From Bugula neritina (lineage: Eukaryota; Bryozoa; Gymnolaemata; Cheilostomatida; Bugulidae), in NCBI GenBank assembly GCA_964035545.1, contig OZ037769.1, forward strand, positions 16,476,633 through 16,540,632: DNA of 64,000 bases. Reading direction: 5' to 3'. Position numbers and translations under genes: made by a program. The stretch's first letter is position 1; each line of letters starts with the position of its first letter. Below are positions 1-63,444 of the stretch, piece after piece. The notes beneath the pieces are model-generated. The model worked only from the letters and a program-made list of their open reading frames with translations, had not been told where the DNA came from and did not search any database.

Positions 1-3000
1 TCGCCCTGATGAGTCCACTTCTTTTCTTAGTGCGCACGTACTTGACTACTCCGTCCGGCCACTCCTTCTTGATGTACTCCTTCACTCTCTCGCATTCCTC
101 GGCACACTGCAGCTCCTCTGTATGAATATCACACTGATCTCTACCAGTACTACACACTGAGCTCTACTAGTACTACACACTGACCTCTACTAGTATTACA
201 CACTGAGCTCTACTAGTACTACACACTGACTTCTACTAGTATTACACACTGAGCTCTACTAGTACTACACACTGACCTCTACTAGTACTACACACTGACC
301 TCTACTAGTACTACACACTGACCTCTACTAGTACTACACACTGAGCTCTACCAGTACTACACACTGAGCTCTACCAGTACTACACACTGACCTCTACTAG
401 TATTACACACTGACCTCTACCAGTACTACACACTGACCTCTACTAGTATTACACACTGAGCTCTACCAGTACTACACACTGACCTCTACTAGTACTACAC
501 ATTGACCTCTACTAGTACTACACACTGACCTCTATTACTAAAGTCATCGAGCAGAATGACCTCGTGGAGGTGGTCAGGTGGAGATCTATTCACCACGCTG
601 TGCACAGTTCTCATCAACGCTGACCAAGCCTCGTTGTGGAATATTATGACCACACTGGCACTCGGGAGGTCCTTCGGGTACGTCAGCTTTTTGCACCTTC
701 AACAGCAGAAACATGGGAGTTCAGAGGAACAGTAACTCCAACTCAGTTAGTAGACATTGAATGACTAAACAGCTGACTCTAGGTCACTATGCTTTGGGCA
801 GGTAAACAACACAGGTGTGGATTTGATATAAAAACTACCCATCCGGAAAATAACAAAAGTTTTGAAGCTCAAACATTTACACTGCGAGGCTTACAATGAC
901 AAAAGGCTATTACAAGCAAACACACTTAGTAAAACTTTGAATACATTGAAAGTTAGATGGCAATATATCAGCATTAACTGAGGATTAAGTTGCATTGCTC
1001 AATCTGTAATTTACTAACAACTAGACTAACTTAACAGTAGCTAGTAATTAACTTTAGTTAGTAGTTAGTATTAAAGACTTGCTATCATTAATTAACCCCT
1101 CTCTCCTACTACTAGAACAGTTATGGCTGGCTGATTTTAACCTAATTAATTATATAATATACTCTGTTGAAATATATTCTATAATTTAGGGAAAACTAGA
1201 ACATAAACGAAATCAAATAAATGGCCATAGCCTTACATAATGTATTCATAGGTTACATACATTTTGATATATTAGGAAGGTTATTGTTGATGCATTTATC
1301 TTTGTGACGAGAAGAACTATTATCAATCTTTCTAATTATTTAAACAAAAACCCAGTCATGGGTATCTAGTAAAATAATTCACAAATACTCACTTGTAGAC
1401 GTGATATAAAACTTAAAACACACCAAATTATCAGTAAAAGTAGTCTGGGCTCTATAACATAGCCTGAATTCTATCCTAATAATAAAATGATATCACACCT
1501 TAAGACATGCTGGTGCCTTCACCTGATGTACTCTAGTCCATGCTATCAGTCTGTATGCATGTATTAGTTAAGTTACCTTACTATATATATATTCTCATAA
1601 ACTGTAGTACCTTGTCAAGTCATGCAGCCATAAAGGTATGAACTATCACTAATAGCTATATTGTAGTTTATTTCTAACTTTCTTTCAGTTACTTAGTTTC
1701 AGTGCTGAAATTAAAAGAAAATTAATTCAGTGCCAAAAAACACAGCCAACATATTCTGCTATCAACTTTTACTTTTACATAAAGAGAATTATGTAAATGT
1801 AGTTGAATTAAACAACAGATAATTAGAAAGGTAATTTTCTTTTTAAGCAAGAAAATGTTTTTTGTAAACAAAACAATGTATTTTTTAAATGTTAGTATCA
1901 TAATATAATATAAAGTAATGTATATTATATTTATATACAATAGCTATTATGCGTTATGTAAATTGCATATATTATACTGAAGGGACTACATGTGTATTTA
2001 TAACAGTGTGTCAGCTAATACAACCCAGCAGAATCTCTCCACAGCCTTACTCTGAAATCATATTGATGAGGAAGACCAATTTGTAGTAGTAATACACGAC
2101 TGGTTCTATTGCTACTTGATACCCTTTGAAAAGGTAATGCATCTTCCACAGAATCTACATGGTAAAGCTGGGAGGGTGGTTAATGTGTGTAGTCAAGTGT
2201 TGTGTTACCTTTGTTTCTGACTGCATTAAAATATTTATAATGAAGTGATTTTAGTTGAATATCTGAGCAGTGCACTTCATTTATAATTTCTTACAACAAT
2301 AGCTACAGTGAGTAGGTCTCAAAGGGACCCAGTCTCTTGTAGAACATTCTAGACTACTGACTGTAACCAAACCTACACAGCTTTATGTTCAAGCTGTCTA
2401 TATTCAGAGTTGGTATCTTTCACGCTGCATGAAAATAGCCTTAGATACAGGTTTTCAGTTTAGTTTAAACAAGCTTGTGTACAATTAGTTAGGGTTGTTA
2501 AGTAAGGGAAGCTATATTTAAACTAGCCTATGCTATAAAATTATTTAAGCCAAAGATACACCATTACAATGAGCTCTATTACAATACACAGTAACACTCA
2601 TTGACATGATGACTAATTATGAGATGTGAGGTCTTTTATATTTAAATAAGGTAAAAAGATGAAACTTATTGTGTTAAAAACTTTAAAATACAAACTCCCA
2701 ACAGTGGGTTGTAAGAACATCAGTATGTGAAATGCATGGCCTAATATTACAATATACTTTATACCGCTTAGATTCAAAATTTTGTCTGGTTGACTTTAAC
2801 ATAATTTATATATTATTTGAGTAAGTTATACTTTTGATTAGAAATAGTGAATTCTGAAAATTCTGAAATGGTTTCAAAGTGTATCAAGTTACCTAAACCA
2901 AACCTATTAAAATATGATTGAGTAAATTATGATCATTTTGTGTCAGTCAGTCAGTCATACTAAGTATTAGCTCTAATTTTAGGTTTGATTGCAGCAATAT

Positions 3001-3868
3001 AGTGATTGCCAATGTAAACATACGTTATCTGTCTCATTGTTGAGCTCTCCCTATTACATCCTAACAGGTGCCTAATTTGTGCAGTCACAATCTCTTCTCA
3101 AAACTCTTTTGCTGCATTCACCCAATCTCTCACATGAAGTTAAAAACCCTCTTTCTAACATGCCCACCACCATAATATAATTATTTATAATCCTACAAGC
3201 CACACCCACATTACACTTTATCCCACTGATTGACTCAATTCATAAATTGTGTACTTTCTGTGCATTGCGGGAAAAATAACACCAACTGCCTATCAATAGA
3301 TGACAAATCGTGATGTAACAGTTTTACTATTAGAAATGATATTTTCTAAAGCCAATAGTAGTAATATTAATTCATAATGATATAAAAATTTAAACTTCTA
3401 GTCCTTACAGCTTTAAGTTTATAAGAGTAAGTGCATTGTCATTGTGATAGGGTTTGGATTGCACAGTTAGGTTACTTACGCTGGATCTCTAATATCCTTT
3501 AATGTTCGGTTAAGAGCAATTCTGTTGCTGGCTATTATATTAAAAGCTTCTTTTTTAAACAAACTATCAGCCAAAGCTTTATCTTTCCCAGTCAACTGAA
3601 CTGCAGCACCCCTTTCTCCTGGTGAACCAGCATTTTCTTTATCTCTATTCGCATATCTATCGTATCTATAGGCTGCTTTTTTCATGCTTAGGCCATTGGC
3701 AGAGTCTCGTTTGTTGATTCCAAGTTCAGTATTATCTAGTTGACCATCCCCAGCTTGATTATCATTCAAAGCAGAGTGCCAAACCGTATACAATACTATT
3801 ATTAATATTGCGCACCCGATCAAGCGTGTGTTTGTCCACCCATATCTTCTTAGGCATCTTGACAACAT
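1..3868 (-). CDS. GALNT: Polypeptide N-acetylgalactosaminyltransferase, 5' part (runs off window start)
   Basis: Exons 3868-3480, 696-530 and 117-1 (continues beyond the window). Phases agree (2, then 1). The product would be a Golgi type II membrane enzyme that starts mucin-type O-glycosylation by moving GalNAc from UDP-GalNAc to Ser/Thr. The start ATG is 3868-3866. A short basic N terminus is followed by one hydrophobic anchor (about residues 16-34) and a polar stem. The stem ends in a family-typical segment ([15 protein letters not shown]). Exon 2 holds the start of the GT-A catalytic domain: [31 protein letters not shown], and LLDD. Exon 3 continues to [11 protein letters not shown]. The DxH motif and the lectin domain lie outside the window. 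The intron after exon 2 starts with a 23-bp minisatellite. The family assignment is firm; the isoform is not assignable. Confidence 0.93.
123..529 (-). repeat. 23-bp minisatellite anchored at a 5' splice site
   Basis: About 18 copies of a 23-bp unit fill the intron between GalNAc-transferase exons 2 and 3. On the minus strand the exon ends AATAGAG and the intron begins gtcagtgtgtag. Each unit again contains AGTAGAG followed by gtcagtgtgtag, so every copy repeats the exon tail and the donor site. Unit variants alternate gtcagt and gctcagt. Confidence 0.95.
697..3479 (-). other. Intron 1 of the GalNAc-transferase gene
   Basis: This 2.8-kb AT-rich intron lies between the membrane-anchor exon and the first catalytic-domain exon. 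The minus-strand donor is gtaagtaac next to 3480 and the acceptor is tgttgaag next to 696. I see no exon, tandem array or clear transposon in it. Confidence 0.7.
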
Positions 3869-8093: not shown

Positions 8094-11000
8094 TTAAATA
8101 AATATGAAGTTATTGCCAAATCGATTGCTAGACTGACAGTCGCATTGCTCTGAGTCATCCAGCCTTTCCCACCAACCAGTACAGCCAGGGGCATTCACTG
8201 CGTTCCAGTTAGTAGATACGCCAGTTTCGCCATGTCCAGTACACAGACCATCCGTGTGACCTTTCTCCATGGCCGTCTGCTGACACTCTACGCATATTAT
8301 AGCTCCTGGTCGTAAAACGTTAGCCCAAGGTGTCACATAGCTCTGACACAAAGATCCGGAGGAGATAATTTTAAATCCACTGCAATATCTATAAATATAA
8401 CAATAGAAAACATTTCAATGAATACATGAATAGTGTCACACACTGTGTGTCCAGTACCTCATGCACTGCGTTTCCATGACTGCGCATAATGCGAATGAAT
8501 GCCCCGTACGGATTATTTGTGGTTTGTGGTTTGCATTAACTTATAGTTGCGGTTTCATTCGATGTAACTGTTTCCATTAGCCGAATGAAAAAATCCATTC
8601 GCATAATGCGATAATGGAAACGCAGTGATGCTAATGGATGCTGGTACTGATGGATTTGTGGTTGCGGTTTGCGTGAACTTATGGTTGCGGGTTCATTTGG
8701 AGGTATGGTGGAGTAATGGAGAAAAGCCTGTGTTCTAGAGTAGAAATGTAGCATATGAAGTTATGTTCTCGCACCCCAAACCAAAATTTAATAATAAAAC
8801 TAAAGAACGTAGGCTATCTCAATTTCTCCACTATTTCAACTGTTTACTAATGCTAATACTAATTGGTTGTTATCTGCCCCTGTTCTACAACCATTCCTCT
8901 TGAAAAATACATATCAACAATACATGTATAATACAAGAGTGACATATGGTGGACACACAGACATCTGCTGATGGGTTGCCAACAGACCTTTTACATTAGT
9001 GTCTGTGGGAATCAACCCTCACTTGTATAGAAAGCTGTGGAACAGAGACAAGAAGCTCTTTATAGAGCAATTAGATACTCCCACTGCTGTCCTATTGTTA
9101 TGTATGGCACCATCAGCACAATAATATTATAGTCTGAGAACATAATCTACACACATGTTACGCTTATAAGGTGTGCTCGTGCACAATCGTATGCAGTTTG
9201 TCAGATGAATTTTATCATTGAATAGTCATTTTTTCATAAGTCCTGGCATACTGTGAATAAAGGACTTGGAGTAAAGCCACTAATACTTGTTATAGGTAGT
9301 TATAGTACCAGTGACGCACTGTATAGTAGTCATAGTATCAGTGACTCACTATAAGGTAGTTATAGTACCAGTGACTCACTGTAAAGTAGTCATAGTACCA
9401 GTGACTCACTATTAACTAGTTATAGTACCAGTGACTCACTGTAAGGTGGTCATAGTACCAGTGACTCACTGTGAGGTAGTCATAGTACCAGTGACTCACT
9501 ACAAGGTAGTCATAGTACCAGTGACTCACTGTGAGGTAGTTATAGTCCCAGTGACTCACCCTCTATAAGTATTGACGTCCATAGAGTAGTACTTATTATA
9601 GAGGTTACTTCTGATGTCAAGGTTGGCATTGTACTTAGTCATAGCCCGGAACCTTCCAAAACTGGCCGGCATTATCTTAGCTGTCTCTAAAACAGATAAA
9701 AGAAGGTCAATTAGTAACACAAAAGCTGTCTAAATAAAAGCGCTTTGTTTACAAAAGTGCTGTCTACAAATATGGCAGCTCTTTCCTTTATTAGATCCAA
9801 CTAGGTGAATTTCAAAAACTGTAAATGACTTTTGAAATAGTGCAGTTGGTTAAACTGTGCAAACTAAATGTAACTCAAGTGAATGAATCAATTTTTTGTA
9901 AGTTACAACTGTTCCATTTTTTCCACATAAGTTTAAAGCATCATGATAGGCGCTGGAAGAACTAAAGCGATTGGTGTTCATATAAATCATAATTATTATA
10001 AATTTAAATCAAGAGTCGGCTTTTAGTTTGAGCGGAAAGAAATAGGTTTGATGTGCCCGATTTGGGTTCATAAATGTGTAACGGATACTGTACACAGGCA
10101 GTTAGAAAGACGCGAGAAGGACTACAATATCCACTACATAGTTTAGATTGGGAGGGAAGATTACACTTGTGGAATAATAATCATAAAAAGAAGTATTTCT
10201 GCCACTTCTGCTAATAAGTAAAGGATGTTGGGAGATAGAAGATTCAGTAGTCATTGTTACAAGTGTGCAAATTAAAAGAATGTGTGAGTATAAGTGAAAA
10301 CACATGACAAAGTTAGTTTAAAGTATTGTAACAATAGGCGTCCACCGTGTACACATATGCTTGCAAGCTACAGCTGGGTGGGTGCAAGACTTGCATCTGT
10401 TTACACTACAGCTTAAAGAGTTATCTTCTCTTTATTTCATCATTGAGGAAAATATTTCCTAATCTAGCAAAAACTTTGTGGATCTAGATAAACCTTTCAG
10501 AAAGAAGGGAAATACAGTCTTTCAAAAGACTGAAAGTTTTATTAAACAATAGAATAGACTACTTGAATTATATGGATTCTAAGACTTAAATTTCTTAGTA
10601 CTTGAGCTTCTATTAACTAAATAGACTTGAGTTGACTTGTTTACAACGCTAGTTAATTTCTGTATATCTAAAGACTAATCTCTTGCCAACATAAATAGTA
10701 GCATAAATTCAGAATTCTATTTTCTTGGTACAGAGTAGAAACTGGAGCAGTGACTTGAAGTTGTCACACCAATATTTTATAATGAATACATTGGCTTATT
10801 ACAAGTTACATGTATTGATTTATTTTGGTACTTTACAGCCACTTTTGAACTTGATGAACTCCTGTTATATTCTATTTTTCAAATTTTAAGCACCTTCTAC
10901 TATGATCATACTTTCAGTTAAACAATGTCCTTATGTAGGCTACTTCTACAGTAAATGGGGAAATTGTATTGAAACCATTATATTTGGAGAAGTACGACCT

Positions 11001-16849: not shown

Positions 16850-19800
16850 CTACTCGCTCTCATGGAGCGAGACGTGCCTGCCAGAGCCCCGGTTGCTGCC
16901 GGTGAAATATCTCGGGTGACCCATTGGTCTGCTGAGGTGGTCTGTGATTGGAGGTCCGAGCTGACCCTGTGTCAGCAGCTGACGTATCAGATCTTGAGCG
17001 AGCTGCAACAGAGAGATGTACTTACAGTACATACAATGTACTTACAGTACATACAATGTACTTACAGTATATACAATGTACTTACAGTACATACAATGTA
17101 CTTACGATCTGATATTGAAAGTTTCCGGTTATCTGAACAGGAATATCCTCCTGGTCAGGATTTTGAGCGCCAGGAAGTTTAATAGAGACGCCAGCTACAT
17201 CCTGTATGTGCCTCACGTTTCTACCTCCCTTCCCAATGATCCGTCCGACCATGTTCTTTGGCACCAGGACATCGCAGCGCAGGTGGGAGTAGTGGTCGCT
17301 GGTGAAACCCTCGTTCTTGATCTTCTCGAATATGAACCACTGAGCCTACAGACCAGATACAGCACTAGAAAGGGAGCATGTGACCTTTGACCTTAAGCTA
17401 CCAGATACTCGGCAGCCGCTGCCATTACTGAGTTCACGATGCAGAGAGAAAGAGAGTGAGAGAGATGACACTCACCCTGGAAACACTGGAAGGGTAGCCC
17501 GTGATCTTCACCGGTCTCTCTTCTGCTTCCGGGTTGTCGTGGTCCTCCAGCACCTGGCAGCTAGCCCTAGACTCCTGCTTCACGTAGTTGATATATGTAC
17601 CCTTGGTTCCTATGACTGCACCGACAGACGCCTTTGGTATGTACATGAAACAGGTCATGTGACCGCCAACACTCTGCTGGGGTGCGGGAGGGAGCAGGCT
17701 GGGCGGCGCGGCACCAGGACGTCCCAACACACTCTACAAGACAAGTGAGAATACAGGGCTACACCCTGAGAGCGTAACACTTCCTAATCTACATGTGCCA
17801 ATGAGACAATGGAAGACATGAAAATACTGGCAGCGGGAATACTCACCGGCATGTAGCTGCCGAGGGGCCGGGTGCTCCAAGGAAGGTAGGGCATGGACAT
17901 GGGCGGGGCAAACATAGATGGCTACAACAGAACGTGTATATCAGAGACTTGGCAGTGTTTAGTGCAGCATTACTAGTAATAAACAGGCGGTATTCGGAGT
18001 TTGACCAGCAGGAAAAAATGTATTCATAATATTTAAAATACTAGAAATACAAAAAGTAAGAATTAGTACTGTTTCAGTAACACTCTGCATACGCATATTT
18101 CCTGTGGTGAAAGATACTGACAGCTAGTGACATGTGGTGACAGCTAGGGACAGGTAGTGACAGCTAGTGACATGTGGTGGCAGCTAGTGACAGGTAGTGA
18201 CAGGTGGTGCTACTCACATGATTGTACTTGGGGTTCTGCATATCCGACTCAAAACACAACTTCAACTTGTCATGTATCTTCTCAGCTGCCAGACACATGG
18301 CCTCCAGGGTGCCGCGAATGCTGACCACACGGTCAAAGTTGATTGGACCAATATTGTTGACACTAAAATAAATACTATGTATGTTAGTATACGCCCATTA
18401 TACACAGTAGTGACTCCCCTGTGACTCACCTGGACACTGTGACTCACATGGATACTGACTCACCTGGACACTGTGACTCACCTGGACACTGTGACTCAGC
18501 TGGACACTGTGACTCAGCTGGACACTGTGACTCACCTGGACAGTGTGACTCAGCTAGACACTGTGACTCACCTGGATACTGACTCACCTGGACACTGTGA
18601 CTCACCTGGACACTGTGACTCACCTGGATACTGTGACTCAGCTGGACACTGCGACTCACCTAGATACTGTGACTCACCTGGATACTGTAATGGTGGTTTC
18701 AGTCTCCTCCATAATACCTTTGATTATTACTCCCTGCTTGCCGATGAGTCTACCACAGAGGTTGTTGTGAGCGAGAATCCTTAACTCCGGTTCACTACAT
18801 CACATACATGGTATTACAGTATAGTAATATAATAGTAATATAATATAGTAATATAGTAATATAATAGTATCATAGTATAGTAATATAGTAAATCATACAC
18901 AACAGAAACTATTGCATAGCACATAAGGCGCGTAAATTGTCTACCAAATCAGGCGCTGCTGAAGCTCATTTCTGAAAACTTCACTTTTATATAACAGATG
19001 AAAGGAAAATATCACGACCCTAACTTGACAAGTAGTTGAACACATAGAACAAGGTGAAGGAACTCAGACTAGAGGAAGAGGAAGTTGTGCTGAAACACAC
19101 CGTGTACTTTGTTCCGACTCCGCTCCCATACTGTCATTCACCGACTCGCTGTTGATAACTTTTAGTATCTCCAGACAGGCGAGAGTACAGTTTTCAGTTT
19201 GAGCACCGAGTATCACAACCATCTACAACGAGTATAAGCACCGCTATAACGAGTTTCAGCCCACAGCACGTACCACTAAAGTGTTACGTAATGAGTTAGA
19301 CCAGTAGAACATGATAGTGCGGTGTAGAAGATTAGATGAACACTTACATTGTCTGCCTGGAGCGTGTTGTCGCGTCTGACTACATCTACCCTGGCGTTGC
19401 TCTGCCGTGCGATGGTCCGTATTGTCTGACCGGACCGGCCCATAATGGCCCCAACATACTGCCGGGGCACGAGTAACCTGCAAAACATTGACACGTGATT
19501 TACAGGGTTTATAAGACATCGCGGGAGGGTTTAGAGTTTAGACACTAAGGAGGAGTATAATATTTGGATAGAGTTGATGGGTGGAGAGGAAACACTAGCA
19601 AAGTACATGTAATAGAGAGAGCATGTCGTGTAATGACAAGTAGACCATAAGATATATCGACACATAAACTATGGACAAGTAGCCCAGTGCTTATATCGAC
19701 GCATGAACTATGGACAAGTAGCCCAGTGTTTATACTGACGCATGAACTATGGACAAGTAGCCCAGTGTTTATACTGACACATGAACTATGGACAAGTAGC

Positions 19801-22800
19801 CCAGTGTTTATACTGACGCATGAACTATGGACAAGTAGCCCAGTGTTTATACTGACACATGAACTATGGACAAGTAGCCCAGTGTTTATACTGACACATA
19901 AACTATGGACAAGTAGCCCAGTGTTTATACTGACACATAAACTATGGACAAGTAGCCCAGTGTTTATACTGACACATAAACTATGGACAAGTAGCCCAGT
20001 GTTTATACTGACACATGAACTATGGACAAGTAGCCCAGTGTTTATACTGACACATGAACTATGGACAAGTAGCCCAGTGTTTATACTGACAGTAACTACA
20101 CTGTCTTGGAGTAGGTAGCCAAGAGCTCGTTACCTGAGAGGAAATTCTATTTTATACGAGTTGTTCTGTGCATACTTGGAAGACGATTTTCTACCATTCA
20201 GGAAATCAGCCTGTCAACAGAACAACAAAAGATGAGACAAATCCCAACATATATTCAGCACAAGATCACTTGCTAGCAGCAGAAGTCAAGACTATTCTAA
20301 CCTTTAACCTTTGACCTTTCAGTTCTAAACCATTTAGTTTCTCCTTGGCACTAAAAAACAAAACAGCATTAGGTTATAAGAAACTGATGAAACATTTTTA
20401 CAGAAAAATTATTCAAGCAGCAATAAAAGGATGTTGAAAGACAAACTCAGAAGCTTATTCACAAGTGTCTAATTCATTAATCAACGATGATATTTAGTTA
20501 TGAAAAACTTGGGTAATAATTAGCGAATATCACACCATGTCTCACTACAGTCAACACTCACCTCTGGGCCTCATCTGCACTAGCATAGGTAACGTGCACA
20601 GATTCATTTTGCCTACTAAAGTCTTTGACTGTACCATGTTTAGATAATTCTTCCTTCACTTCTTCATCAGTCAGCTCTCTGGATACTGACTTTATAGCCA
20701 ATTTACTACTGCTGCCGACTTTCAAAGAATTCCGACTAACAAAACATAGCATCAACCTGCAGTTCATTCAGTCTCAATAATTCATGCTGATGAAAGTAAA
20801 GTAACCACACCTCCTGCTTGTCTATAAACACTCTAAATTATAACAAAATAGGAAAATTTTTCAGCATGAACTTCAAGAGCTCGAGAATTGAGAGCTCAGA
20901 GAAAAGTATGAAATGTTACAGCGGAAAAATAGATAAAGACAAAAAGGGTGCACTATATATATATATATGTGAATAGTAACACTCGAACCAGTAACTGGCT
21001 TTGTTACTTACTGGTTTTTATTCACTGCTGGCTCCACTGTGATGACTTTATCGTGAAGAGACAAACCTGCAGCATACACAAAGTTTGGCATACAGCACCA
21101 ATGAAGGCTTGTATAGTTGGCATCTTAGTTTATTATAAGCCACTAACATTATTATTTTACTTTTCCTAGCAAGTAAAAAGGGTCGCATCCTAGAGAGAAG
21201 CTAGACTAAATTTCCCAGTTGGACGCTATTTATTTATTTTGGTGCAATTACATACAGTAACATACCTATATAAACGTTACATTGATTACTAAATAGCTAG
21301 AGCTAATAGCTATAATAGCTAATATAAAATATTTGGGATACTATTCCAATTTTCATGGATAAGTGTGTGAAAAAAGCAGCAATACTTTAATAATAGATAT
21401 GATCTTTATTGAATACTTATTAGCAAAATATCTTATCAAACAAGAAGCATAGAAAATGCAAAAATAATAAGTTAATGCAGATCAAAAATTTTATTTATAT
21501 GCTAAATAACAAGCAATTGGTCCAAGTTTATTTAAATATACATATATTTCAAAATTATTAAAATTAATTGCACATAGAATATATCTTGTACCAAAATAAA
21601 TAAATAAACTGGGAAATTTAGTCTAGAGTCTAACTGGGATGACACCGTAAAAAGTTATAGGATATTTAGCTACATACATCCACAGTGATATTATAACTTA
21701 CAAGACATATTTAAATCATGTAGTTTCTTATTTCGTAGGCTAATAAAATTAAAAATTATAAAATCATAGTTGCCGAATAAACAAAATAATAATATAATTG
21801 TACTATTATAATTTAATTCAGTTATCTTAAATTGATAATATAAATCTCCTATTCACTCAATTATTTATTATTTTGATTTTGATAATTACTATGGATATAA
21901 AAAGATTGCATAAAATTAAATTGCACTAAGAAATTTGCCATTAATGCAAATTGTCTTAAGAACAAGTAACTTAAATGTTAAGATTAATGGTTATTTGTAA
22001 AGAATTTTAATGTATGGTGCTCACAAATATATATTTGAGTACCAGACCTGCTTATGTTATATAATTGAGTAGTAGAGACTGATTTCAGTCCAAAAGCATT
22101 AGCTAGTAAAAGTTAACCTAAAGCTTCTCTAAGGTCTGAAACTAAAAGCTTGCATTATAATTAGTATAGGAAGCAAATAACCAATAATACAATTACAATC
22201 ATTTAAAATTAACGTTTATGATAATCATTAATATTTATTTAATTATTTATCATTTAAAACTAATAATGTACAGTATTATCATTTCAATGTTATTATTATT
22301 TCAGTTTGATTCCAACTAAAATATTTATTACAATACTTAATCTTATACCATAAAAACAGCAATAGTGATACTAATACTAATAGTATATACTAATACTGCT
22401 TAAACCTAAACTTTCTCCTAGTAGTATGTGTACTACAGTACCACTACTACAGTATTAGTGGTAGAGGTACTGGTAGTAGTACAGTCGTACTAGGAGTACT
22501 ACTACTTTTAGAGTTCTACAACTAATACCACCACTACTACTACTAGCACTACTACAAGTAAACTACTACTAGTAATACTACTCTACTACTACTAGGTACT
22601 AGTATTACTATTACTATTAGAAATACTATTATTAATTGTAGTATTTAACTTTAAGTATATGTCCTTCTACTACTCTATTACTATTAGTATTAGTATTACA
22701 TTTACTATAGTAGTATAGTATTAGTACTACTGGTTACTGCAATACAAATATGCATATACTGCACAATGAAGATACAAATGCACTGAGCTGGATATTTACC

Positions 22801-25435: not shown

Positions 25436-33067
<7,632 letters not shown>

Positions 33068-34320: not shown

Positions 34321-36798
<2,478 letters not shown>

Positions 36799-38424: not shown

Positions 38425-40467
38425 ATGTCGAACACTGTATGCCCTCTGACAGCCAAGAAACACAAAATGGACCCCTCTACGACCATGTCTGGTGACCAAA
38501 GACATGGCTACACTTATCCTCTACGTGTGGCCCTCCTTATCACTGGACTTTACTCTGGAAGACATGAGAAGAAGTTTCTCACTGTACTGTGTGTAGCCTA
38601 CCACCTGATTTGTTGTATTCTGTCAACTCTACTCTGTCTCACTTGTAAGTATTGCTTCTTCTTAGAACTACAAATTTGTCTTTTGAATAATATTCCCATC
38701 TATCTAGACAGTACAATAACATATTAAATTGGTAATGGAAAAGACGTTAATAAATAATTAAATTCCAGTTTTCAGTAAAATGCGAACCTATAGCGATCAG
38801 TATAGTTGAGATTCTATATAGTAATGAAGTTTTTGATATTCCCCTAGCGTCAGTTTTGACTCTTTAATTTACTTTGAAGATACAATTTATGTTCTCTACT
38901 TTTTAATTATAATTTTAGGTGTGGTAGTGCTCTGTTTGTGGCTTCCAACAATAGAAATGACGATTCACAACTTCGCCATAACAGCTGTTGGCATGTACTG
39001 GTACCTCACTCAGACTATCAGTAACTGGATCTTCTTCTACAACTGTCACAGAGCTGATGGCCTCTTCAGATTGTTCCAGAATATTAAAGATGAAACGGAA
39101 ATAATGAAAACTAAGAACATTAACAGTAAGCCAGCTAAAGAAAAGAGGAATCAAATCATAATATTTCTTGTCTCGACAATATTGGTTGCTGTTAACACTG
39201 GTATAAAACTATGGGACATCACTCACGCGAAAAGCACGGATCCAGTATTAAATTCAATGGTTTTACCAACTTTGAACATTTCTCGCAGTCTCTATGTCAG
39301 CATTGAGTGTGTGTCAGCAAGTGGCTCTGTGCTGCTTTGCATTCAGTGGTTGTACCAACCAGCTTTCTTTGTGAGCATTTGCTACACTGTGTATACAATG
39401 ATGTCCAACTTTAATGAGCATTTCGGGGAGTGTGTAAAGAGATCTGTACAAGACACGATTGACCATATTCATGAATACAGAATGATGCAGTTACGCTTGA
39501 GTGAGCTCGCCGAGTTTATCAACAAGCTGTTTAAGTTCTACTTGGCAAACACCATCACAGACTTGGTGATCGGACCACTAGTGTTTCTCTACTTGCTGTC
39601 CACGCCACAAATGGGAGCATTTGACTTGTTTGGACAACTCAACATGACCTACTGGTTCATATCCTCCGGACTCATCATTCTATCCTGCGTCTTTTTCTCT
39701 CAAATTATAGCAGATGTGGTAAGTAAAACTCTAGTTGTTCTGTTAAATAATGCATGATAAGGTCAAGGGTCATTAATAATTTTATTATTGATTTAGTCTG
39801 GAGAAGCATACGGACATCTGCTGAACCTGATGGATGACCAGACAGAGTTGACCGTCACTCAAAGTCATCAGGTGAAGTTAAACTAGTCTTGTCTTGTCTT
39901 TCTACAGTCCGCATGTTATTGTAATGATTCTGGAAACTATAGTACGTGTGTGTAAGATTGTATTTTATAAAAGTTCGGGATAGAGCTGATTTGAATTAGC
40001 ATTTTATTCCACAGTTTATTTGGTTTAAAATCTGTCAAGCAAACTAGTTTATCTGTATCTCAACACAAATAAAAATTATATAGATCAAGTGGAATCAATT
40101 ATTATATTTTATAAATAAAATTATATATATACCCACTGAACATAACAGGTATTGTTATTCCTTCTGTTGTTAGATTCAGCTGTTCATTAGTAAGACTCAG
40201 TCTCCAGATACTATAACCATGGGGAGAGTATTAGATGTGAACAAGGAGCTCGGTCTAACAGTGAGTACACCTACTTAGGCTATATTGTAGATACTTAGTC
40301 TATATTGTAGATACTGAGTCTATATTGTAGGTACTTAGTCTATATTGTAGATACTTAGTCTATATTGTAGATACTGAGTCTATATTGTAGATACTGAGTC
40401 TATATTGTAGATACTGAGTCTAATGGTGACGTACTACCTAGTGATGTTACAGTTTAACCAAAGTTGA
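38425..40467 (+). CDS. Gustatory-receptor-like 7TM protein 1
   Basis: Exons 38425-38644, 38919-39718, 39797-39871, 40174-40260 and 40411-40467 give 412 residues in frame, the usual size for this family. Several hydrophobic segments (for example FLTVLCVAYHLICCILSTLL and IIIFLVSTILVAV) fit seven membrane passes. The tiny last exon encodes TYYLVMLQFNQS and the stop, matching the TYhhhhxQF signature in TM7 of insect-type gustatory receptors. Family knowledge predicts an intracellular N terminus and a ligand-gated channel. A ligand cannot be read from sequence. The last exon's acceptor lies in a 20-bp array whose units all end ttgtag. A paralogue follows 2 kb downstream. Confidence 0.85.
40270..40410 (+). 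repeat. 20-bp array anchored at a 3' splice site
   Basis: About eight copies of atactgagtctatattgtag. The last copy's ttgtag is the acceptor, and the exon begins ATACTGAGTCTA, so each unit repeats the acceptor plus the exon head. Confidence 0.96.
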
Positions 40468-45400: not shown

Positions 45401-46849
45401 AAAATATATTATATTGTACCAATATAAATATATAGCCTCTATAGCTGGGATGACACCTTTTTTGTTGATTTCAAGCAAAGAATTTATTACAACATTATTA
45501 GAGTTGTAATATAATTATATAACATTATGTGATGATTATACAGATGTTGTTATATGCAGTTGTTGATTACTATAATATTCTATAGATAGATTATATTGAA
45601 CTTAACAAATATTGTTAAATTCCTGTTGTTAGATTCAGCTGTTCATTAGTAAGACTCAGTCTCCAGATACTATAACCATGGGGAGAGTATTATATGTGAA
45701 CAAGGAGCTCGGTCTAACGGTGAGTATACCTACTTAGTCTATGCTGTAGATACTGAGTCTATATTGTAGATACTGAGTCTATATTGTAGATACTGAGTCT
45801 ATATTGTAGATACTTAGTCTATATTGTAGATACTTAGTCTATATTGTAGATACTTAGTCTATATTGTAGATACTGAGTCTATATTGTAGATATGGTACTG
45901 AGTCTATATTGTAGATACTTAGTCTATATTGTAAATACTTAGTCTATATTGTAGATACTTAGTCTATATTGTAGATACTGAGTCTATATTTTAGATACTT
46001 AGTCTATATTGTAGATACTTAGTCTATATTGTAGATACTTAGTCTATATTGTAGATACTGAGTCTATATTGTAGATACTGAGTCTATATTGTAGATACTT
46101 AGTCTATATTGTAGATACTTGGTCTATATTGTAGATACTTGGTCTATATTTTAGATACTTAGTCTATATTGTAGATACTTAGTCTATATTGTAGATACTT
46201 AGTCTATATTGTAGATACTGAGTCTATATTGTAGATACTGAGTCTATATTGTAGATACTGAGTCTATATTGTAGATACTGAGTCTATATTGTAGACACTT
46301 AGTCTATATTGTAGATACTTAGTCTATATTGTAGATACTGAGTCTATATTTTAGATACTTAGTCTATATTGTAGATACTTAGTCTATATTGTAGATACTT
46401 AGTCTATATTGTAGATACTGAGTCTATATTGTAGATACTGAGTCTATATTGTAGATACTGAGTCTATATTGTAGATACTGAGTCTATATTGTAGACACTT
46501 AGTCTATATTGTAGATACTTAGTCTATATTGTAGATACTGAGTCTATATTTTAGATACTTAGTCTATATTGTAGATACTTAGTCTATATTGTAGATACTT
46601 AGTCTATATTGTAGATACTGAGTCTATATTGTAGATACTGAGTATATTGTAGATACTGAGTCTATATTGTAGATACTTAGTCTATATTGTAGATACTTGG
46701 TCTATATTGTAGATACTGAGTCTATATTGTAGACACTTAGTCTATATTGTAGATACTTTGTCTATATTGTAGATACTTTGTCTATATTGTAGATACTGAG
46801 TCTAATGGTGACGTACTACCTGGTGATGTTACAGTTTAACCAAAGTTGA
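42418..46849 (+). CDS. Gustatory-receptor-like 7TM protein 2
   Basis: Exons 42418-42628, 42943-43742, 44289-44363, 45633-45719 and 46793-46849 give 409 residues in frame. Exon lengths match paralogue 1 except for a 9-nt deletion in exon 1 (HKM missing). The middle of the protein is strongly alike (for example FNEHFGECVKRSVQ). The differences cluster in the hydrophobic segments (for example VIASLVF versus VIGPLVF). The last exon again ends TYYLVMLQFNQS. Introns 3 and 4 are longer than in paralogue 1: they gained a SINE cluster, a MITE-like copy and a large expansion of the acceptor-anchored array. Likely a chemosensory receptor; ligand unknown. Confidence 0.85.
43790..43943 (-). mobile_element. 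tRNA-derived SINE (family B)
   Basis: On the minus strand: tRNA-like head GTGGTGTAATGGTTTGCA with B box GGTTCGAATCC, then a tail (ttttgctacatttc, acaggcttttttcaatttct). Similar tails lie at 44115-44170 in opposite orientation and at about 8700-8755. It is in receptor gene 2, intron 2. Confidence 0.65.
45066..45460. mobile_element. MITE-like repeat, copy 2 (about 390 bp)
   Basis: Homologous along its length to 21178-21648: the same order of tagctaat words, tttcatggat, taatgcagatc, tccaagtttatttaaatata and a right end gctgggatgacacc. It is diverged and shorter. It lies in receptor gene 2, intron 3, and is absent from paralogue 1. Confidence 0.65.
45732..46792 (+). repeat. 20-bp array, about 53 copies, anchored at a 3' splice site
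   Basis: The same atactgagtctatattgtag unit as in paralogue 1, expanded to over 1 kb. Variants (actta, actttg, attttag, gacact) occur in repeating order, for example 46204-46380 and 46424-46600, so multi-unit blocks were duplicated. The true acceptor is the last ttgtag before 46793. Confidence 0.97.
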
Positions 46850-47516: not shown

Positions 47517-50500
47517 CTAGGGATATCCATTCAACTTTGTGGCATTCTTTCTCAAAATGGGCTCGCTATCCGTAAGATCGCTGTCGTCGGAGAACTCAAA
47601 CTCCTGCATCTGCATAGTGTTCCAGTTCTCTTTGGGGGCAGACGTGCGTACCGGACGGTAAGAGCTGCGAGGGGCGGAGACGAGATATTTCATGACTACA
47701 AACGTAGCGGCGCAGATTACCATGGAGATGAGGGACGTGTAAATGAGAGACAGGGGGCCTATACTATCGATTGACAAGCCCACAATTGCCGGCACAGCCA
47801 TCTCCCCTAAAGCAGACGCACAGACAAACACAGCGGCCATCTTACTTGTAACTTTGATGTAATTTTCGAGCCACAGAACACCCGTAGGAAATATGGCGGC
47901 CATTCCAACACCCAGAGTCAAAGAGAAAAACCAAACCGGTCCGTTTAAAGCTGCAAATGCAGTAGTGGCGATGGCCAGGCCAGCTGTGGAAAACACCGAA
48001 ATGACGATAGAAACAATAAGCATGGTGTTGGGTGTCAAGCATTTAGACAGAGGTATACACAGGCCTCTAGCCATGGCAAACGAACCCCAATACAGGGAGG
48101 TAAGCAATGCCGCCCGCTTCTCACTCAGATGACTCCTGTGGTGTATGCTAAAAGTAGCAATAAACTGGCCATACGCCACTTCTGTGCCAACGTAAACAAA
48201 GAAAAAGACAAATGCTGCAGACATGACCTTCACCTTGTAACGGGTAGATACGTTGGAAGCTGTGAACTTATCCACTACTTCCTGCAGATCGTTTTCAGAC
48301 TTAAACCTAGCCATTCCGGTGCGACCTGAGCAGCATCCACATTGCAGACAGCAGAACACAACTCCAAACGTGACTAATACTATAGCAATGATAAGGTAAC
48401 TGAACTGCACTTTGGAAATGGAGGAGAAAACGTCTTTGGCTTGTTCAAAAAGAGAAGGTGCATGTGTGGAGTTACCACTTGAAAAAGTCTGCGGGGGTTT
48501 GGCATTGCTGTCGCCTGAATGTGATGGCTTAGCAGCCTTTGTGGTTGCCTTGGACTTTTCTGGAGTAAGAGTCGTTTGTTCTGGAGCGGGAATTGTCTTT
48601 TCTGGCTCTGCAGTAGGAGTTGTCTTTTCTGGATTAGGAGTTGTAGCCTCAGTAGTCGACACACTTGCTATCGTAGATGCATTAGACACACTAGCAGGAG
48701 TTGAGGTGGTTATTGCAGTAGTAGTTGAGGTGGTAGTGGACCGTCCCAGCTCTGAGCTAGACGCTGAGCCAGGGGCGGCTGAAGAGGGGTTGGAGTCGGA
48801 CAGTGAGGAGGAAAGGGGGGTCGTTGGAATCGTTTTGTTTGCTAAGTACGAGGAGGGATCCAAAGAAGAGTTTGTGAAAGAAGTTTCATTGAAAGTTCCT
48901 TCTGGAGGAGTGACCGCTGTGGAATTTTCTATACCGGCAGTATTACCACTACTAGTTGTAACAGTATCAGTACTACTTGTTGTAACAGTATTACCACTAC
49001 TAGTTGTAACAGTATCAGTACTACTAGTTGTAACAGTATCAGTACTACTAGTTGTAACAGCATCAGTACTACTAGTTGTAACAGTATCAGTACTACTAGT
49101 TGTAACAGTATCAGTACTACTAGTTGTAACAGTATCACCACTATTAGTTGTGGCACCATCAGTACTACTATTTTTAGTAGTACTAGTGTTAGTAGTACTA
49201 GTGCTAGGGGTACTGGTGTTAGTGGTAATAATGTTAGTTATACTGGTGTTAGTTGTACTGGAGTTAGTACTGTCAATTGAAACAGTATCAGTGTCAACAG
49301 CTGAAGTAGAGGAATGAGGTGATGGAAAACCTGTCAAGTTATTGGCAGAGACACCTGTGTCAGGAGCAGATGGTGTGGCAGCAAGGGTGACGTTCTCAGC
49401 GGTGTCACTAGAAAGCTGCTTGAGTTGAGTCTCATTGGAGTCAGTTGAAGAGTTTTCAGACGATGTCGCAGCTCTAGTAGTAAGAGGTGTAGTAAGGGGA
49501 GTAGCAGGGGGAGTAGTAGGGGGAGTAGTAGGGGGTGTGGTAGGGGGTGTGGTAGGGGGTGTAGTAGGGGGTGTGGTAGGGGGTGTGGTAGGGGGTGTGG
49601 TAGGGGGCAAGGAGGAGGTGAATAGCTTTTGTTTATTGTCATCGATATCTTTGCCAATATTATTGCCACTCCCGTCATTTAAGTCTTTGTTTTTGCTCAC
49701 CTCCCCTCCAGTATGTGAGGGTTTCACAGGAGCTGGCACAGCACTAGTCACACTTGTTGAAGTATTCAAGGATTTCACAGTAACTGGCACAGCACTAGTC
49801 ACACTTGTTGAAGTATTCAAGGATTTCCCAGAAGTGAATTGAGTAGAGGAAGTGAAGGCAGACGGGAGACTAGAAAGTGAGTCATTAGTTGCAAGTGCTG
49901 CCCGTTTGCTCAGCACTTGAGGCACGGAGGCAGCAGGAGTAGTCAAAGTGAAGTTGTCTCCCAGCTCCATCGATGTGTTACAAGTTAGCCCTGAAACTGA
50001 ACTCAAGAATGGGGCAGCTACGAGGGGCGCAATACAAGCCCCGAGTCCAAACGCAAAGTGCAACGACTGCATGTATGGGCCACTGCTTTTCCCCCAGATC
50101 TTCAGGCATATAACATTTCCACCTGCAATAAATAGTCAACTGTGTAAGGATATGACATAGCATAGCATATATATGACATAGTATAGCCTATATATGACAT
50201 AGCATAACATATATATGACATAGCATAGTGTATATATGACATAGCATAGCGTATATATGACATAGCATAGTATATATAACACAGCATAGCGTATATATGA
50301 CACAACATAGCGTATATATGACACAGCATACCTGTGTCCAGGAATCCCATAGCTATACTAGTTAATGAGAGGAGAACACAGAGTGTGGGGAGTGAGAAAA
50401 CCCAAGGAGCTATGCAGATTGCTAGAAATAAATATATAAAATTCAATATTACCATGGTATATGTTATATGTTATACCTAAATAATCAAGGTTCTTTTTAA

Positions 50501-52703: not shown

Positions 52704-52719
52704 GCTTATGTTGTCTGCA

Positions 52720-55700: not shown

Positions 55701-55762
55701 AACCAGTTAACACTAGTCTAGTGAATCTCAGTATTCAATGCTTGTGTTTTCAGTGTATTCCA

Positions 55763-58700
55763 ATGGCTGAAGCTACAGTTAAGCAGGTAGAATGTGGATT
55801 CTGTGTAACCAGACTAGAAGATCTAGAAGATTCCAGATCTCTGCCTTGTTCTCATGTACACTGCTTAAGATGTCTGCTGGGGAACTTTGAGGTCAATAAG
55901 ATAGTGAGATGTCCCTTCTGCAGGTATCATCTTCCTTTGAGATATTCTCAGTTTGAGTTCTGTTTACTAATCATTGTGAGTTCTACTGTATTGTGTGTTA
56001 TATTCTCTACTGAGTGAGATGTATTGTATACTGTGATGAGTTAGTAACTGCTTTACTGTATTGTATAGAGAAGTATTTGATGTTGACATTCACTCTCTTC
56101 CTACCTCCAACATCGGAGAAGGTCCATCTCTATATTGTGATAGTTGTACCAGGAAAGGAGTGAATAATCAGCCAGCTGTTATTTACTGTAAAACTTGTTC
56201 CACTAAACTGTGTGCTAAACACAGAGAGGTGAGTTAAACGTCAGATTTAGTATTTTAAACAATTTAATAATATGATTCATGTAACATGTTTATTATGTGA
56301 TATATTAATGGCAATCATGGTTGTACTATTATAACTTTTACTGTATTATACACAGTCACATGATGATGTGCATGGAGCCCACCCTATGATCACCATGACT
56401 GACTACAGAACGCAGGCTATGAAGCTAGCACCCAGGCTATGTACTAAACACACAGAATTGCCATACATTCTGGGATGTAGAAAGTGTTTAACTTGTGGCT
56501 GTGTGGAGTGTCTTAGTGTCCTGGGGAATTGTACAGATGGTATGTATTCTATAGAGAATTGTACAGATAATATGTATTCTATAGAGAATTGTACAGATGG
56601 TATGTATTCTATAGAGAACTGTACAGATAGTATGTATTCTATAGAGAATTGTACAGATGGTATGTATTCTATAGAGAATTGTACAGATGGTATGTATTCT
56701 ATAGAGAATTGCACAGATGGTGTGTATTCTATAGAGAATTGTACAGATGGTGTGTATTCTATAGAGAATTGTACAGATGGTATGTATTCGCTTCAAAAAT
56801 GAACATCAGTGTGTATTATTTCATAGGTTCATCTCACAAACTGATGTCACTGAAAGAGTTGGTAACTGAACTCTCCAAAGAGGTGGATGAGATGAGATCA
56901 GAAATACTGGACAGAGAAGATAAACTCTCAGATTTACTGAAACACGTGACTGGAGTATTGTGTGATTATGATAGTGAGACTAGAGATATGATAGAGACAC
57001 TCCACAGAACACGTGATGAACAGGTCATATTATATACTCTGTACTGTTATATGTTAGTTGAATATCACTGTAGTCACTAGTTTGTAAGTCGAGATATAAA
57101 TAAACTAGTAGAATCTATTTATAGATTGAGAGTATTCAACAGAAGTATAAGAAGTTGGAAGAAGAGTTGATAGAATTGAGAAGAAATACTAAATTAGAGT
57201 TGGAGAGATTCACTGAACAGGATGTTGGAGTGAAGTTGTCTGATCTGAATAGACATAGACTTCAGATTGAGGCCAGACATAAACACAATCACCAGGTCTG
57301 TGGTTTACTAGTTCCATGATATTAGCATTTAGTTCTGTTTGATTTTGATGAAGTGATATTTTCATTCTTCAGTTTCAAGAAAGTATATATCTTTAGGTGG
57401 ACATTATAAACAGACATGGGGAGACAATCAACCAGATTAAGGAGTTGTTATCAGGGAACCTTCCAACTCTGAAACTATCCAATATGGCTACTCTAGAGGT
57501 CAAAGGTTAGACTTGGATATTACTAAATAGTGATTTTTTAAAACTTTTTCAGCTTAGATGCCCTTTTTTTAGTAAGTAGTATAGTAAGTAGTAAGGCTAA
57601 ATACTTTATTACTTTAATTGGCTAAGAAATGTAGGTGCGACTTAAATATAAAAGTATGTACTGTCAAACACATTTGTTTACAAGACTTACTATAAATCAT
57701 GTGTCAGTTGAGTACTCTTATTCGATGCACCAAATTCTCTACTGTCTGACATGTGACGATTCCAATTTTGTGGTTTTAAACGCTGTTTTTCTCACTAACG
57801 GTTTAATGGTAAAAAGGGTGATTTGCTTTATATTTGAATGCATGCTTCGTGCTTTGAATAGTTGAGAGGTTATATCACTAAGCCTAGGGCCACACGGTGC
57901 GTATTTTCGCATGCGAAAATTGAAATCACAAGTAGCAAAGGTGTCCACTGTAGCGTTGAGAAAACGTTCGCACTTGTCGCTCTGCATTTTCAACGCAAGT
58001 GCGAATCGTCTCTGTCGTCGTCACCTAATTAGCTGGTAGTTATTCGGCGAGCCCAATTTCTTTATTTTAGTGCTTCATTCCAGTAAATTGCGTTTTATTG
58101 AAAGCGAGTGCGATTTAAAAATGAATGCTTTTTTTATCACGCATCACTGACGCTACAGTGGACACCTTTGCTACTTGTGATTTCAATTTTCGCATGCGAA
58201 AATACGCACCGTGTGGCCCTAGGCTAACACTATAGTGCTGCTCTCTATTTATTATCAAATACATACTGACACTGGAAGATTATATAAAGTATCATATAAT
58301 CATATAATATGACTGTTTGAGATGTAGTGCCACCTGCTAGCACCTGTTTCTTACCAATTCAGTGTTCTGTAAACTATAACAATATTTTCTACAATCTAGA
58401 AAGACATAAGTGTTTAGAAAAATATTATTGTTGCACTTCAGTCATTTGCTGTTATAAAATTCACTCTACTGATGCACATTTCTATATTTTGAGTTGATTC
58501 TGTAAATCTCAAATTGTCTAGATCACTGGTGGAGTATAATTTAGGTGAGCATTGAATCTCTTAATAACCTCTCTATGAATTTCATTGTAGGCGAGAAAAG
58601 AGAAGTTGAAGTAGAAGTTGTCACCTCAAAAAGTGTGTCTATAGACTTGGAATATGGACTGACAACTCCTGATACTCTACCTACACAGTTGTCTCTCCTG

Positions 58701-59926
58701 CATACAGTTCCTGTGTCTGGTGGCTGTACTTCAGTCTGTAGTTATCAGGGAAACACTTATGTTGGGACAGAGAGTGGTGGAGTAGATATAATAGATGAGA
58801 ATAACCAACTCAGTAGGGAGTTTGTAAGAGTAGGTAACTCTGTACTCAGTGTAGCTGTATACAAGGACAGACTGTATACTTTAGCACATGGTAACCCTTA
58901 CAGAGTCACAGTACATGATCTGACAGGGAGACTCATCACCAGCTGGACACACACTGATTATGGGTATTTTAGTAAACTAGCAGTTGTTAGTGACCAGGTT
59001 GTTATACCAGACAGACAGAACAAGAGACTAACAGTTTACTCTCTTACAGGGGAGGTAATTAAACACATTCACTGTCCTCTACTCAGTCCTAACTGGGTAT
59101 CAATGTGTGCCGTAGACAATCTCTCTGTTGTTGTGTCTCATTATCAAACTTCTAAAGTGTTTAAAGTGAATATTCCAAGTGGAGAAGTTGAATGGACGTC
59201 ACAAGATGTACCCAACCCTGAAGGTGTAACATACCACGGAGGGAGAGTGTTTGTTACTAGCGACAGTAATACCACCAGAGTCTGGATACTGGATGTGAAT
59301 ACAGGTTAGATTATATACGTACTAATCTACATTGTATACTTACTAATCTGCATTATATACTTACTAATCTACATCATATACTTACTAATCTATATTATAT
59401 ACTTACTAATCTACATTATATACTTACTAATTTACATTATATACTTACTAATCTACATTATATACTTACTATTCTACATTATATACTTACTAATCTACAT
59501 TATATACTTACTAATCTACATTATATACTTACTAATCTACATTATATACTTACTATTCTACATTATATACTTACTAATCTACATTATGTACTTACTAATC
59601 TACATTATATACTTACTAATCTACATTATATACTTACTAATCTACATTATATACTTACTAATCTACATTATGTACTTACTAATCTACATTATATACTTAC
59701 TAATCTACATTATATACTTACTAATCTACATTATATACTTACTAATCTATATTATATACTTACTAATCTACATTATATATTCATATATTCAGGTAAACTG
59801 CTGACAGAGATCTCAGATGCTGCTATAAGAAGTAACTCTAGTGTATTTGATCTGCACGTAACAGGAAATACTCTGATAGTCCCGAGATTCGATGAACATA
59901 AAGTGCTGTTCTACCAAATAGACTGA
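55763..59926 (+). CDS. TRIM-type RING/B-box/coiled-coil protein with propeller-like C terminus
   Basis: Exons 55763-55923, 56069-56228, 56356-56539, 56827-57023, 57125-57295, 57397-57505, 58591-59304 and 59793-59926 give 609 residues in frame when the first available donor is used for exon 3. Domains: RING (CGFC, LPCSHVHCLRC, CPFC), B-box 1 (CDSC, YCKTC, LCAKH), B-box 2 (CTKH, CRKC, CGCVEC, then SSHKLMSL), a heptad-rich coiled coil (exons 4-6), and a C terminus of repeated short strands (TSVCSYQGNTYVGTESGG, LSVAVYKDRLYTLA) like an NHL/beta-propeller. A ubiquitin-ligase role is inferred from the RING. Exon 3 ends inside B-box 2 at a 9-unit array of in-frame donors. Intron 6 holds a Harbinger-like MITE and intron 7 a 21-bp array. 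Confidence 0.85.
56527..56790 (+). repeat. 30-bp array of in-frame donors in TRIM exon 3/intron 3
   Basis: Nine units. The exon reads GGG AAT TGT ACA GAT G, then gtatgt. Each unit repeats AATTGTACAGATG and gtatgt with no stop in frame, encoding NCTDGMYSIE. Any of the nine donors joins the next exon in phase 1. Confidence 0.95.
57882..58224. mobile_element. PIF/Harbinger-like MITE (343 bp)
   Basis: Perfect inverted arms of 75 bp beginning GCCTAGGGCCACACGGTGCG, flanked by TAA on both sides (57879-57881 and 58225-58227), the 3-bp TWA target duplication of PIF/Harbinger elements. The arms contain a TTTTCGCATGCGAAAA palindrome. No open frame for a transposase. Arm identity suggests recent insertion. 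Confidence 0.85.
59309..59785 (+). repeat. 21-bp array with TACTAAT motif in TRIM intron 7
   Basis: About 22 copies of a 21-bp unit (acttactaatctacattata plus one base) fill the intron from just after the donor (ACAG then gttagatt) to about 15 bp before the acceptor atattcag. Each unit carries TTACTAATC, which resembles a branch-point consensus. Confidence 0.96.
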
Positions 59927-60109: not shown

Positions 60110-60115
60110 AATAAA
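60110..60115 (+). terminator. Candidate poly(A) signal of the TRIM gene
   Basis: AATAAA 184 bp after the stop codon. Confidence 0.5.
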
Positions 60116-60398
60116 ATTTGCAATCCCTTCTATGTAACTTAAATGATATAAATGTTTGCTAATATCCTAAAGTCTTTACTGAATGTGATCTATGTAACTT
60201 CCTCTTCCCTAAATAATATGCTACATCTCTGCTTTGTCATTTTTTCTTTTCTATCTTGTGTAATTTTAAATGCAAAAACTTCATAAATCTGAGCAGTATC
60301 TTCACTAAAGATAAGTTACTATAACTAGTCCATAATATAAGGTTTTTTCTCTTGCTGTAATATAATATTATAATGTTTCCTATGCAGTCTTCTTAGGC

Positions 60399-60754: not shown

Positions 60755-60759
60755 ACTTA

Positions 60760-62735: not shown

Positions 62736-62737
62736 CC

Positions 62738-63444
62738 ATGGCAACTAAGGAAATTATTAAATCATTTGAGGGGGAGTGGCAATGTGACAACTCTAGAACA
62801 GAAAACTTTGAGGAGTTCCTAGCAGAAATGGGTGAGATTGTGTTCTGGAAATGCTATTAATAGTTTCATGTTTCCCAAAAACATCATAATGTTGTTTCTT
62901 GCCTAAACAAATTTACCTCAGCCTATCAAACAGCAAGAAAAGATTTGCCAGTTTTTAAGCTATACACGTGGATTAAGGGTGTTTCACTTTTTATTATCCT
63001 ACCCTTCGTGTTAATCAACTGCTTGATTTGCTTGTCTGTCTGTAATATATGGAGTTGGTGCCAAAGTTAGATCAGCTTTGTTGTACTTTGTATTAATTTG
63101 AAATTTATCACTCATTACTCTAACTACTACTATTAAATTTCCATTTACACTATCATTTATTACTGTGACCATAGCTTTTTACAATCACTCATCACAGTGA
63201 CTATCACTCATCACTGTGACTATCACTCATCACTGTGACTATTACTCATTACTTATCACTGTCACTAGGAGTCAACTTCATGATCAGGAAGCTGGCCAAG
63301 CGTAGCTCCCCCATCATGACCATCTCCTCAGACGACACTCACATCACCTTTAAGAATGAAGCAGGGTTCACCACGAAGATCACCTCCCTACCTCTAGATG
63401 GCACTGAAGTGCTAGAGGACCACCAAGGAGGGGGCAAATCCAAT
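62738..63444 (+). CDS. Fatty-acid-binding protein (iLBP family), first two exons; rest outside window
   Basis: Exons 62738-62831 and 63269-63444 (phase 1 junction) encode 90 residues of an expected 130-140. The start ATG has a good context (aaccATGG). Family marks: FEGEWQCDNSRTENFEEFL corresponds to the GTW...ENFDEYL start, then MGVNFMIRKLA (the helix region), PIMTISSDDTHITFKN (strands) and EDHQGGGKS in the expected loop. The second exon ends at a donor gtatgtg after AAATCCAAT. The exon boundary after the helix-loop region matches the conserved first-intron position of the family. It is a cytosolic carrier of fatty acids or retinoids; ligand not assignable. The C-terminal exons, with the Arg-x-Tyr carboxylate site, lie beyond the window. 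Confidence 0.88.
63165..63268 (+). repeat. About 19-bp array ending at the acceptor of FABP exon 2
   Basis: About four copies of cactcatcactgtgactat run into the acceptor, whose last bases (tcactgtcactag) are a variant of the unit with ctag in place of ctat. Confidence 0.7.

Follow-up and report, generated by a model that had tools for sequence, protein, structure and literature searches.

Minisatellite arrays fill introns and span splice sites in a 64-kb region of the Bugula neritina genome

Background

Why do tandem arrays in a series of neighbouring genes begin or end exactly at splice sites? The question is raised by a stretch of 64,000 nucleotides from the bryozoan Bugula neritina (GenBank assembly GCA_964035545.1, 216 Mb in 295 contigs; contig OZ037769.1, here C5, C5:16476633-16540632), which we refer to as the window. 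A first-pass annotation of this sequence had counted at least nine such introns in seven genes and had proposed that one shared process, tandem duplication seeded at exon-intron borders, produced them. Here we show that the arrays do lie at the borders, that the filling of introns by arrays, and not contact with splice sites, is the standout feature, and that the sequence gives little sign of any special targeting of splice sites.

Results

Tandem arrays were detected with Tandem Repeats Finder (TRF), which gave 85 rows in the window and, after merging, 38 arrays with a period of at least 10 bp. Intron borders were fixed by reading frame and homology, and introns whose borders could not be fixed were omitted; all splice junctions below are therefore predicted ones, placed by frame and protein similarity. 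In nine introns belonging to eight genes of the window, one gene more than first reported, the array starts exactly at a splice site or spans it, and a tenth array lies 1 nt away (Table 1). For the remaining seven of the 17 window intron arrays, the distance to the closest splice site is 5-182 nt, as measured from the TRF best row. Units of the touching arrays measure 17-57 bp, and the sizes quoted in the first-pass annotation are correct.

The intron set was then 61 strong: 33 introns from the window, nine from the upstream 20 kb, three from an ARF1-like gene 0.7 Mb from the window (locus L008), two from locus L035 and 14 from ARF-family genes at seven loci elsewhere (locus L031 contributed none). 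Arrays were present in 17 of 33, six of nine, three of three, two of two and one of 14 of these introns, respectively; the share in L008 and L035 is biased, because L008 was picked up through an array and the two introns of L035 were read because of theirs. Since the arrays of the paralogs GRL-A and GRL-B are the same event, GRL-B was removed from the position tests, which left 30 independent arrays. Eight of these span a border and two further ones begin exactly at it, with contacts on both sides of the intron (eight donor, two acceptor).

The extent to which arrays occupy their introns is more conspicuous than these contacts. Just 9-56 nt remain beyond the array in 17 of the 29 array-bearing introns, whereas lengths among the 32 array-free introns run from 78 to 2437 nt; the residual lengths differ from the lengths of all array-free introns (P = 0.003). 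As the residuals are the shorter, either the intron bodies were replaced or the introns in which the arrays grew were already smaller than every array-free intron seen here. An array that came to fill its intron would end close to the splice site on each side, or right at it, even if nothing had directed it there.

Another important question is whether splice sites are nevertheless targeted, and the excess over simulated positions expected under border seeding depends on the null model. If the simulation keeps arrays inside introns, the observed ones are crowded towards splice sites (P <= 5e-5, 30 arrays); among the 16 arrays covering less than 80% of their intron, four touch a splice site against 0.18 expected, and ten lie within 30 nt against 4.4. 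This null forbids overlap with the border, which is seen in the sequences. Once overlap is allowed, with the intron collapsed, no excess of contacts is left: 10 of the 30 arrays touch against 12.2 expected, four against 2.9 in the set with less than 80% cover, and two against 5.5 among the 14 arrays outside the window. With pre-array lengths drawn from the C5 array-free introns, 8.0 contacts are expected against the 10 observed (P = 0.26), and with lengths drawn from all array-free introns, 6.4 (P = 0.08). The contact count thus falls within the three border-overlap expectations (6.4-12.2), so that targeting is not needed to account for it, and the proposed seeding at borders finds no support here. 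A mild pile-up near intron ends persists: ten of the 16 arrays with less than 80% cover lie within 30 nt against 5.7 expected (P = 0.01). The hairpin potential of the units (mean z -0.47, standard error of the mean 0.22, 29 units) was too weak to use.

Could the arrays be copies of one mobile sequence? Pairwise comparison of the 31 intron arrays gave six matching pairs at blastn E <= 1e-3, GRL-A/GRL-B at 97% and the other five at 69-79%; the GRL pair is the only match among the nine touching arrays. The GALNT unit, the sole one searched genome-wide, has similar arrays at four other sites (78-85%), including a site within the ARF1-like gene. Because the units are mostly unrelated, the arrays do not represent one transposon, as the first-pass annotation had also concluded, and the 31 arrays do not show the single sequence family at many introns that marks introners or transposon-borne introns. 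The first-pass annotation's description of the sequences as unrelated holds for most units but fails for GRL-A and GRL-B, which carry one unit at 7.6 and 53.5 copies (single haplotype) and represent one event in a gene duplicate.

Touching arrays are enriched in donors relative to dinucleotide shuffles (P = 6e-4); non-touching arrays show no donor excess by the same comparison (P = 0.06; two sense and two antisense at 7 bits or more), which also speaks against seeding, and antisense donor motifs show none relative to shuffles of antisense units (P = 0.52). As a separate observation, the antisense acceptor-like score of the 20 non-touching intron arrays is above that of dinucleotide shuffles (P = 5e-4).

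The splice-site copies are numerous, as had been described. Sites are copied at 11 junctions, with GRL-A and GRL-B taken separately; scored with a matrix built from the 32 array-free introns, 58 of the copies are at least as strong as the authentic site, and for the SBSPON and IGF2BP last-intron donors no copy reaches the authentic score. Besides the exon-proximal copy, every copy within 2.5 bits would break the frame at 10 of the 11 junctions. All such decoys would lead to a stop or frameshift at seven of the eight donor junctions, TRIM being the exception, and so would 6/6, 48/48 and 2/2 of them at the three acceptor junctions. From these frames we infer that the spliceosome would tolerate the decoys. 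In TRIM, six inner donors that match the authentic donor in score are in frame and open, and would add 10-residue repeats. The TRIM array itself (56526-56789) is open in frame as an ENCTDGMYSI repeat, which could enter the protein if the inner donors were used.

How well are the junctions supported? All joined exon models read as open frames; where the border was set by frame only, it was picked to yield an open frame, and openness of such joins is therefore not independent evidence. Pfam domains cross the junctions in GALNT (Glycos_transf_2), SBSPON (SBSPON_C) and the IGF2BP last intron (KH_1); DTC is continuous (2-133/133) across the DTX-B junction, Arf crosses three ARF1 junctions and Peptidase_M16 two, and Ricin_B_lectin crosses a junction in the GALNT lectin part by two residues only. 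A protein search confirmed the name IGF2BP: the best match of the joined protein is from the bryozoan Watersipora subatra (56% identity over 96%; next match 42%), in keeping with a bryozoan host, and the alignment contains no inserted array residues and is unbroken at ITVS/SVNN, with poor conservation near the 18217-17922 intron. A Pfam scan gave no match for the Macro-like and FABP-like joins, and none above the curated cut-off across the TRIM array junction; all three are supported by frame, and the joined TRIM model had no relative in a protein database search. The joins in GRL, MFSD4, NHL, EGF-like and PARP (28614) were made by frame alone. The family names GRL, MFSD4, FABP and PUF60 and the DTX/PARP grouping are putative.

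Paralogs give two testable cases of intron age. The intron position is common to DTX-A and DTX-B, with an array only in DTX-B, and ARF1-like intron 2 is present in two paralogs on other chromosomes, shifted by 1 nt and without arrays. The ARF1-like intron after QNTQ (L008 1210-1398) is in phase 0, and in phase 1 in the paralogs L025 and L028, an apparent 1-nt intron shift.

Are such arrays found elsewhere in the genome? Counting arrays of at least three copies and at least 80% identity, the density per 10 kb was 2.8 in the window, 3.5, 2.0 and 8.0 in the other C5 stretches, and between 0.25 and 0.5 in four blocks of 40 kb on C1-C4; by eye, two arrays in these blocks start 7 and 11 nt into the intron side of donor-like sites beside open frames. 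Genome-wide, triple spaced GTGAGT, the only motif tested, gives 20,987 matches, compared with 12,762 when the pattern is reversed (ratio 1.64), with counts that overlap within large arrays and are not independent; for single GTGAGT the ratio is 146:117 in 244 kb (1.25) and 90:64 in the C1-C4 blocks (1.41). Over the first 1.04 Mb of C1, the matches listed fall into at least 11 clusters on one strand; nine of these arrays were inspected (Table 1).

A chromosome-end effect, suggested by the location of the C1 clusters and by that of the window (1.2 Mb from the C5 end), was rejected: neither C1 nor C3 has an array (at least three copies, 80% identity, period at least 10) in a 5-kb stretch situated 1.2 Mb from its right end. 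The periods of the six coding arrays in the window are all multiples of 3, as predicted by selection on frame.

Three further observations were made outside the window. Locus L033 holds, on the minus strand, two adjacent similar GALNT catalytic-domain exons ending in YIR (9092-9280 and 9397-9630), which are candidate mutually exclusive exons. Locus L032 (1779-5002) has long frames with a zinc knuckle and is retroelement-like. Small contigs (for example C58, C83 and C99) give Arf/GTPase matches, some intronless and some with many stops, and these sequences are perhaps bacterial or otherwise non-host.

Table 1 Arrays, introns and related features of the window, and GTGAGT arrays inspected on C1 (slash, exon-intron border; nt, nucleotides)
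Feature	Position	Strand	Array	Intron and splice-site relation
GALNT intron	118..529	-	97% array; TRF 130-534, 23 bp x17.6	Intron 529-118; unit (TRF) includes donor GAG/GTCAGT + 5 exon nt
SBSPON-like array	9294..9559	-	30 bp x8.9	Intron 9559-8389, 1171 nt; begins exactly at donor GT
IGF2BP last intron, 103 nt	17003..17105	-	87% array, 20 bp x4.5	Begins exactly at GTAAGT
IGF2BP array	18107..18209	-	~20 bp	Intron 18217-17922; starts 8 nt inside donor (TRF best row: 14)
IGF2BP array	18419..18688	-	18 bp x15	Donor of intron 18677-18363; unit = 11 exon nt + GTGAGTC
IGF2BP interior array	18820..18891	-		Intron 19100-18795; acceptor 25 nt away
IGF2BP interior array	19659..20091	-	39 bp x11	Intron 20133-19478; donor 42 nt away
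PARP/DTX-A array	28566..29185	+	57 bp x11	Intron 28614-29622, donor at 28614; open frame; unit contains 48 exon nt + GTAACATAT
Macro-like-region intron	30163..30335	+	87% array, 23 bp x6.6	Open frame
Mid-intron array	31268..31332	+	Three copies of near-perfect donor GAGGTAAGTG	Nearest splice site 182 nt off
DTX-A intron	32676..32776	+	None (control)	Position same as DTX-B intron
DTX-B array	35853..36305	+	38 bp x11.9	Intron 35865-36507; unit = 12 exon nt + donor GTGAGT
GRL-A last intron, 150 nt	40261..40410	+	20 bp x7.6	Unit = acceptor TTGTAG + 12 exon nt
GRL-B last intron, 1073 nt	45720..46792	+	GRL-A unit, 53.5 copies	Acceptor side, 12 exon nt
MFSD4-like intron	50123..50331	-	87% array, 21 bp	Begins 1 nt inside donor
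TRIM array	56526..56789	+	30 bp x8.8	Intron 56540-56826; unit = 14 exon nt + GTATGT
NHL/beta-propeller gene intron	59305..59792	+	96% array, 21 bp x22.4	
FABP-like array	63184..63267	+	19 bp	Intron 62832-63268; wider TRF row stops 1 nt before intron end (best row: 15 nt from acceptor)
Coding array	27608-28088		45 bp	
Coding array	31695-31771		30 bp	
Coding array	35501-35599		24 bp	
Coding array	48948-49170		24 bp	
Coding array	49477-49607		12 bp	
Coding array	49718-49831		51 bp	
L040	C1			At donor; IKK-like kinase, E 1e-14 to IKK-beta
L043	C1			At donor; zinc finger
L044, L046	C1			At donor; frame only, no Pfam match
L038, L041	C1			Possibly at donors
L039, L042	C1			Near acceptors of opposite-strand exons; frame, no Pfam match
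L045	C1			No exon seen

Discussion

We consider it probable that these arrays correspond to the minisatellites known from amphioxus as mirages, and that here they take over introns without targeting their splice sites. Short segments, mostly of 14-57 bp, would duplicate in tandem and then expand through slippage or unequal exchange. Growth would be tolerated where the mRNA is unaltered, that is, within introns down to the last few nucleotides that splicing uses, and also across a border if the exon-proximal copy of the splice site stays in place, the copied exon bases becoming intronic; eventually the array would replace most of the intron body. On either side the spliceosome would pick the copy nearest to the exon, as exon definition predicts, and the decoys would be harmless because that copy is taken.

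Several observations weigh against this reading. It offers no explanation for the loss of the remaining intron sequence, and compared with the C5 array-free introns alone, the residual lengths give P = 0.06. Others would be expected if a process targeting splice junctions, mainly donors, seeded the duplications, for example through nascent-RNA structures or AGGT-like microhomology. These are the within-intron position test, the pile-up within 30 nt under the border-overlap null (24 of 30 arrays against 19.7 expected, P = 0.01), the ratio of donor to acceptor contacts (8:2, P = 0.11), the higher ratio of triple than of single GTGAGT, and the C1 arrays, selected by donor motif, four of nine of which start at or span coding-exon donors; by a rough, uncomputed estimate, about one-fifth of GTGAGT sites are real donors. 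Against such targeting stand the border-overlap nulls, which leave no excess of contacts, the deficit of contacts among the arrays outside the window, and the GTGAGT counts, which come from overlapping matches to a single motif. We therefore regard targeting as unlikely. A genome-wide conversion of intron bodies to minisatellites that starts preferentially at donors, with exon definition shielding the mRNA, seems similarly doubtful to us; if true, introns would be the least stable part of genes in this bryozoan lineage.

Did some of these introns perhaps originate as arrays, exon DNA having been duplicated in tandem so that splice sites arose and the repeats became intron? Reduced to one unit, GALNT 529-118, GRL-A and IGF2BP 17105-17003 would shrink to ~20-35 nt, too short for a usual animal intron. 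In neither of the two testable cases, the DTX pair and ARF1-like intron 2, was the intron absent before the duplication, and we hold such an origin to be quite improbable. That the arrays are regulatory, the copies serving as alternative splice sites, is very improbable: the TRIM inner donors would suit this role, and the splice-donor minisatellite of human IFI6 (6-16) reportedly supplies several donors, but in Bugula the frame would be lost with most inner donors, and at the other 10 junctions with all decoys within 2.5 bits.

How do these arrays compare with known systems? In amphioxus, mirages are tandem repeats across exon-intron borders, at both 5' and 3' ends, described in Adh3, globins, TnC and PGBD5, with units of 10-72 bp in Adh3 and ~150-160 bp in globins and many copies carrying splice signals (PMC3087553, PMC3902484). 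The Bugula arrays resemble them in spanning both kinds of border and in the size of their touching units. Unlike the mirages as described there, they occur in many genes of one region, reach 53 copies and replace intron bodies nearly wholly, in a bryozoan host and as known here from DNA sequence alone.

Human internal tandem repeats at exon-intron boundaries are minisatellites of ~30 bp that alter intron borders in duplicated genes; they are variable, lie in segmental duplications and have transcript support (PMC2812944). In Bugula, by contrast, introns of many genes are involved, and in one testable case the intron predates its array. Intron gain via tandem genomic duplication of AGGT (PMC3443670) likewise duplicates splice-site-like sequence in tandem, but here, in the two testable cases, the arrays grew in introns shared with array-free paralogs.

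The anatomy of mirages is known; new are the bryozoan host, how dense the arrays are and how they take over intron bodies; no report of mirages in bryozoans was among the matches listed in the open literature, subscription papers being mostly outside its scope. These natural introns, reduced to a few end nucleotides plus repeats, with dozens of equal decoys at known distances, open two questions to experiment: what minimum of unique sequence suffices for an intron, and by what means one of many identical sites is chosen by the spliceosome. They suggest that mirages, described so far in amphioxus, can dominate gene structure outside that group.

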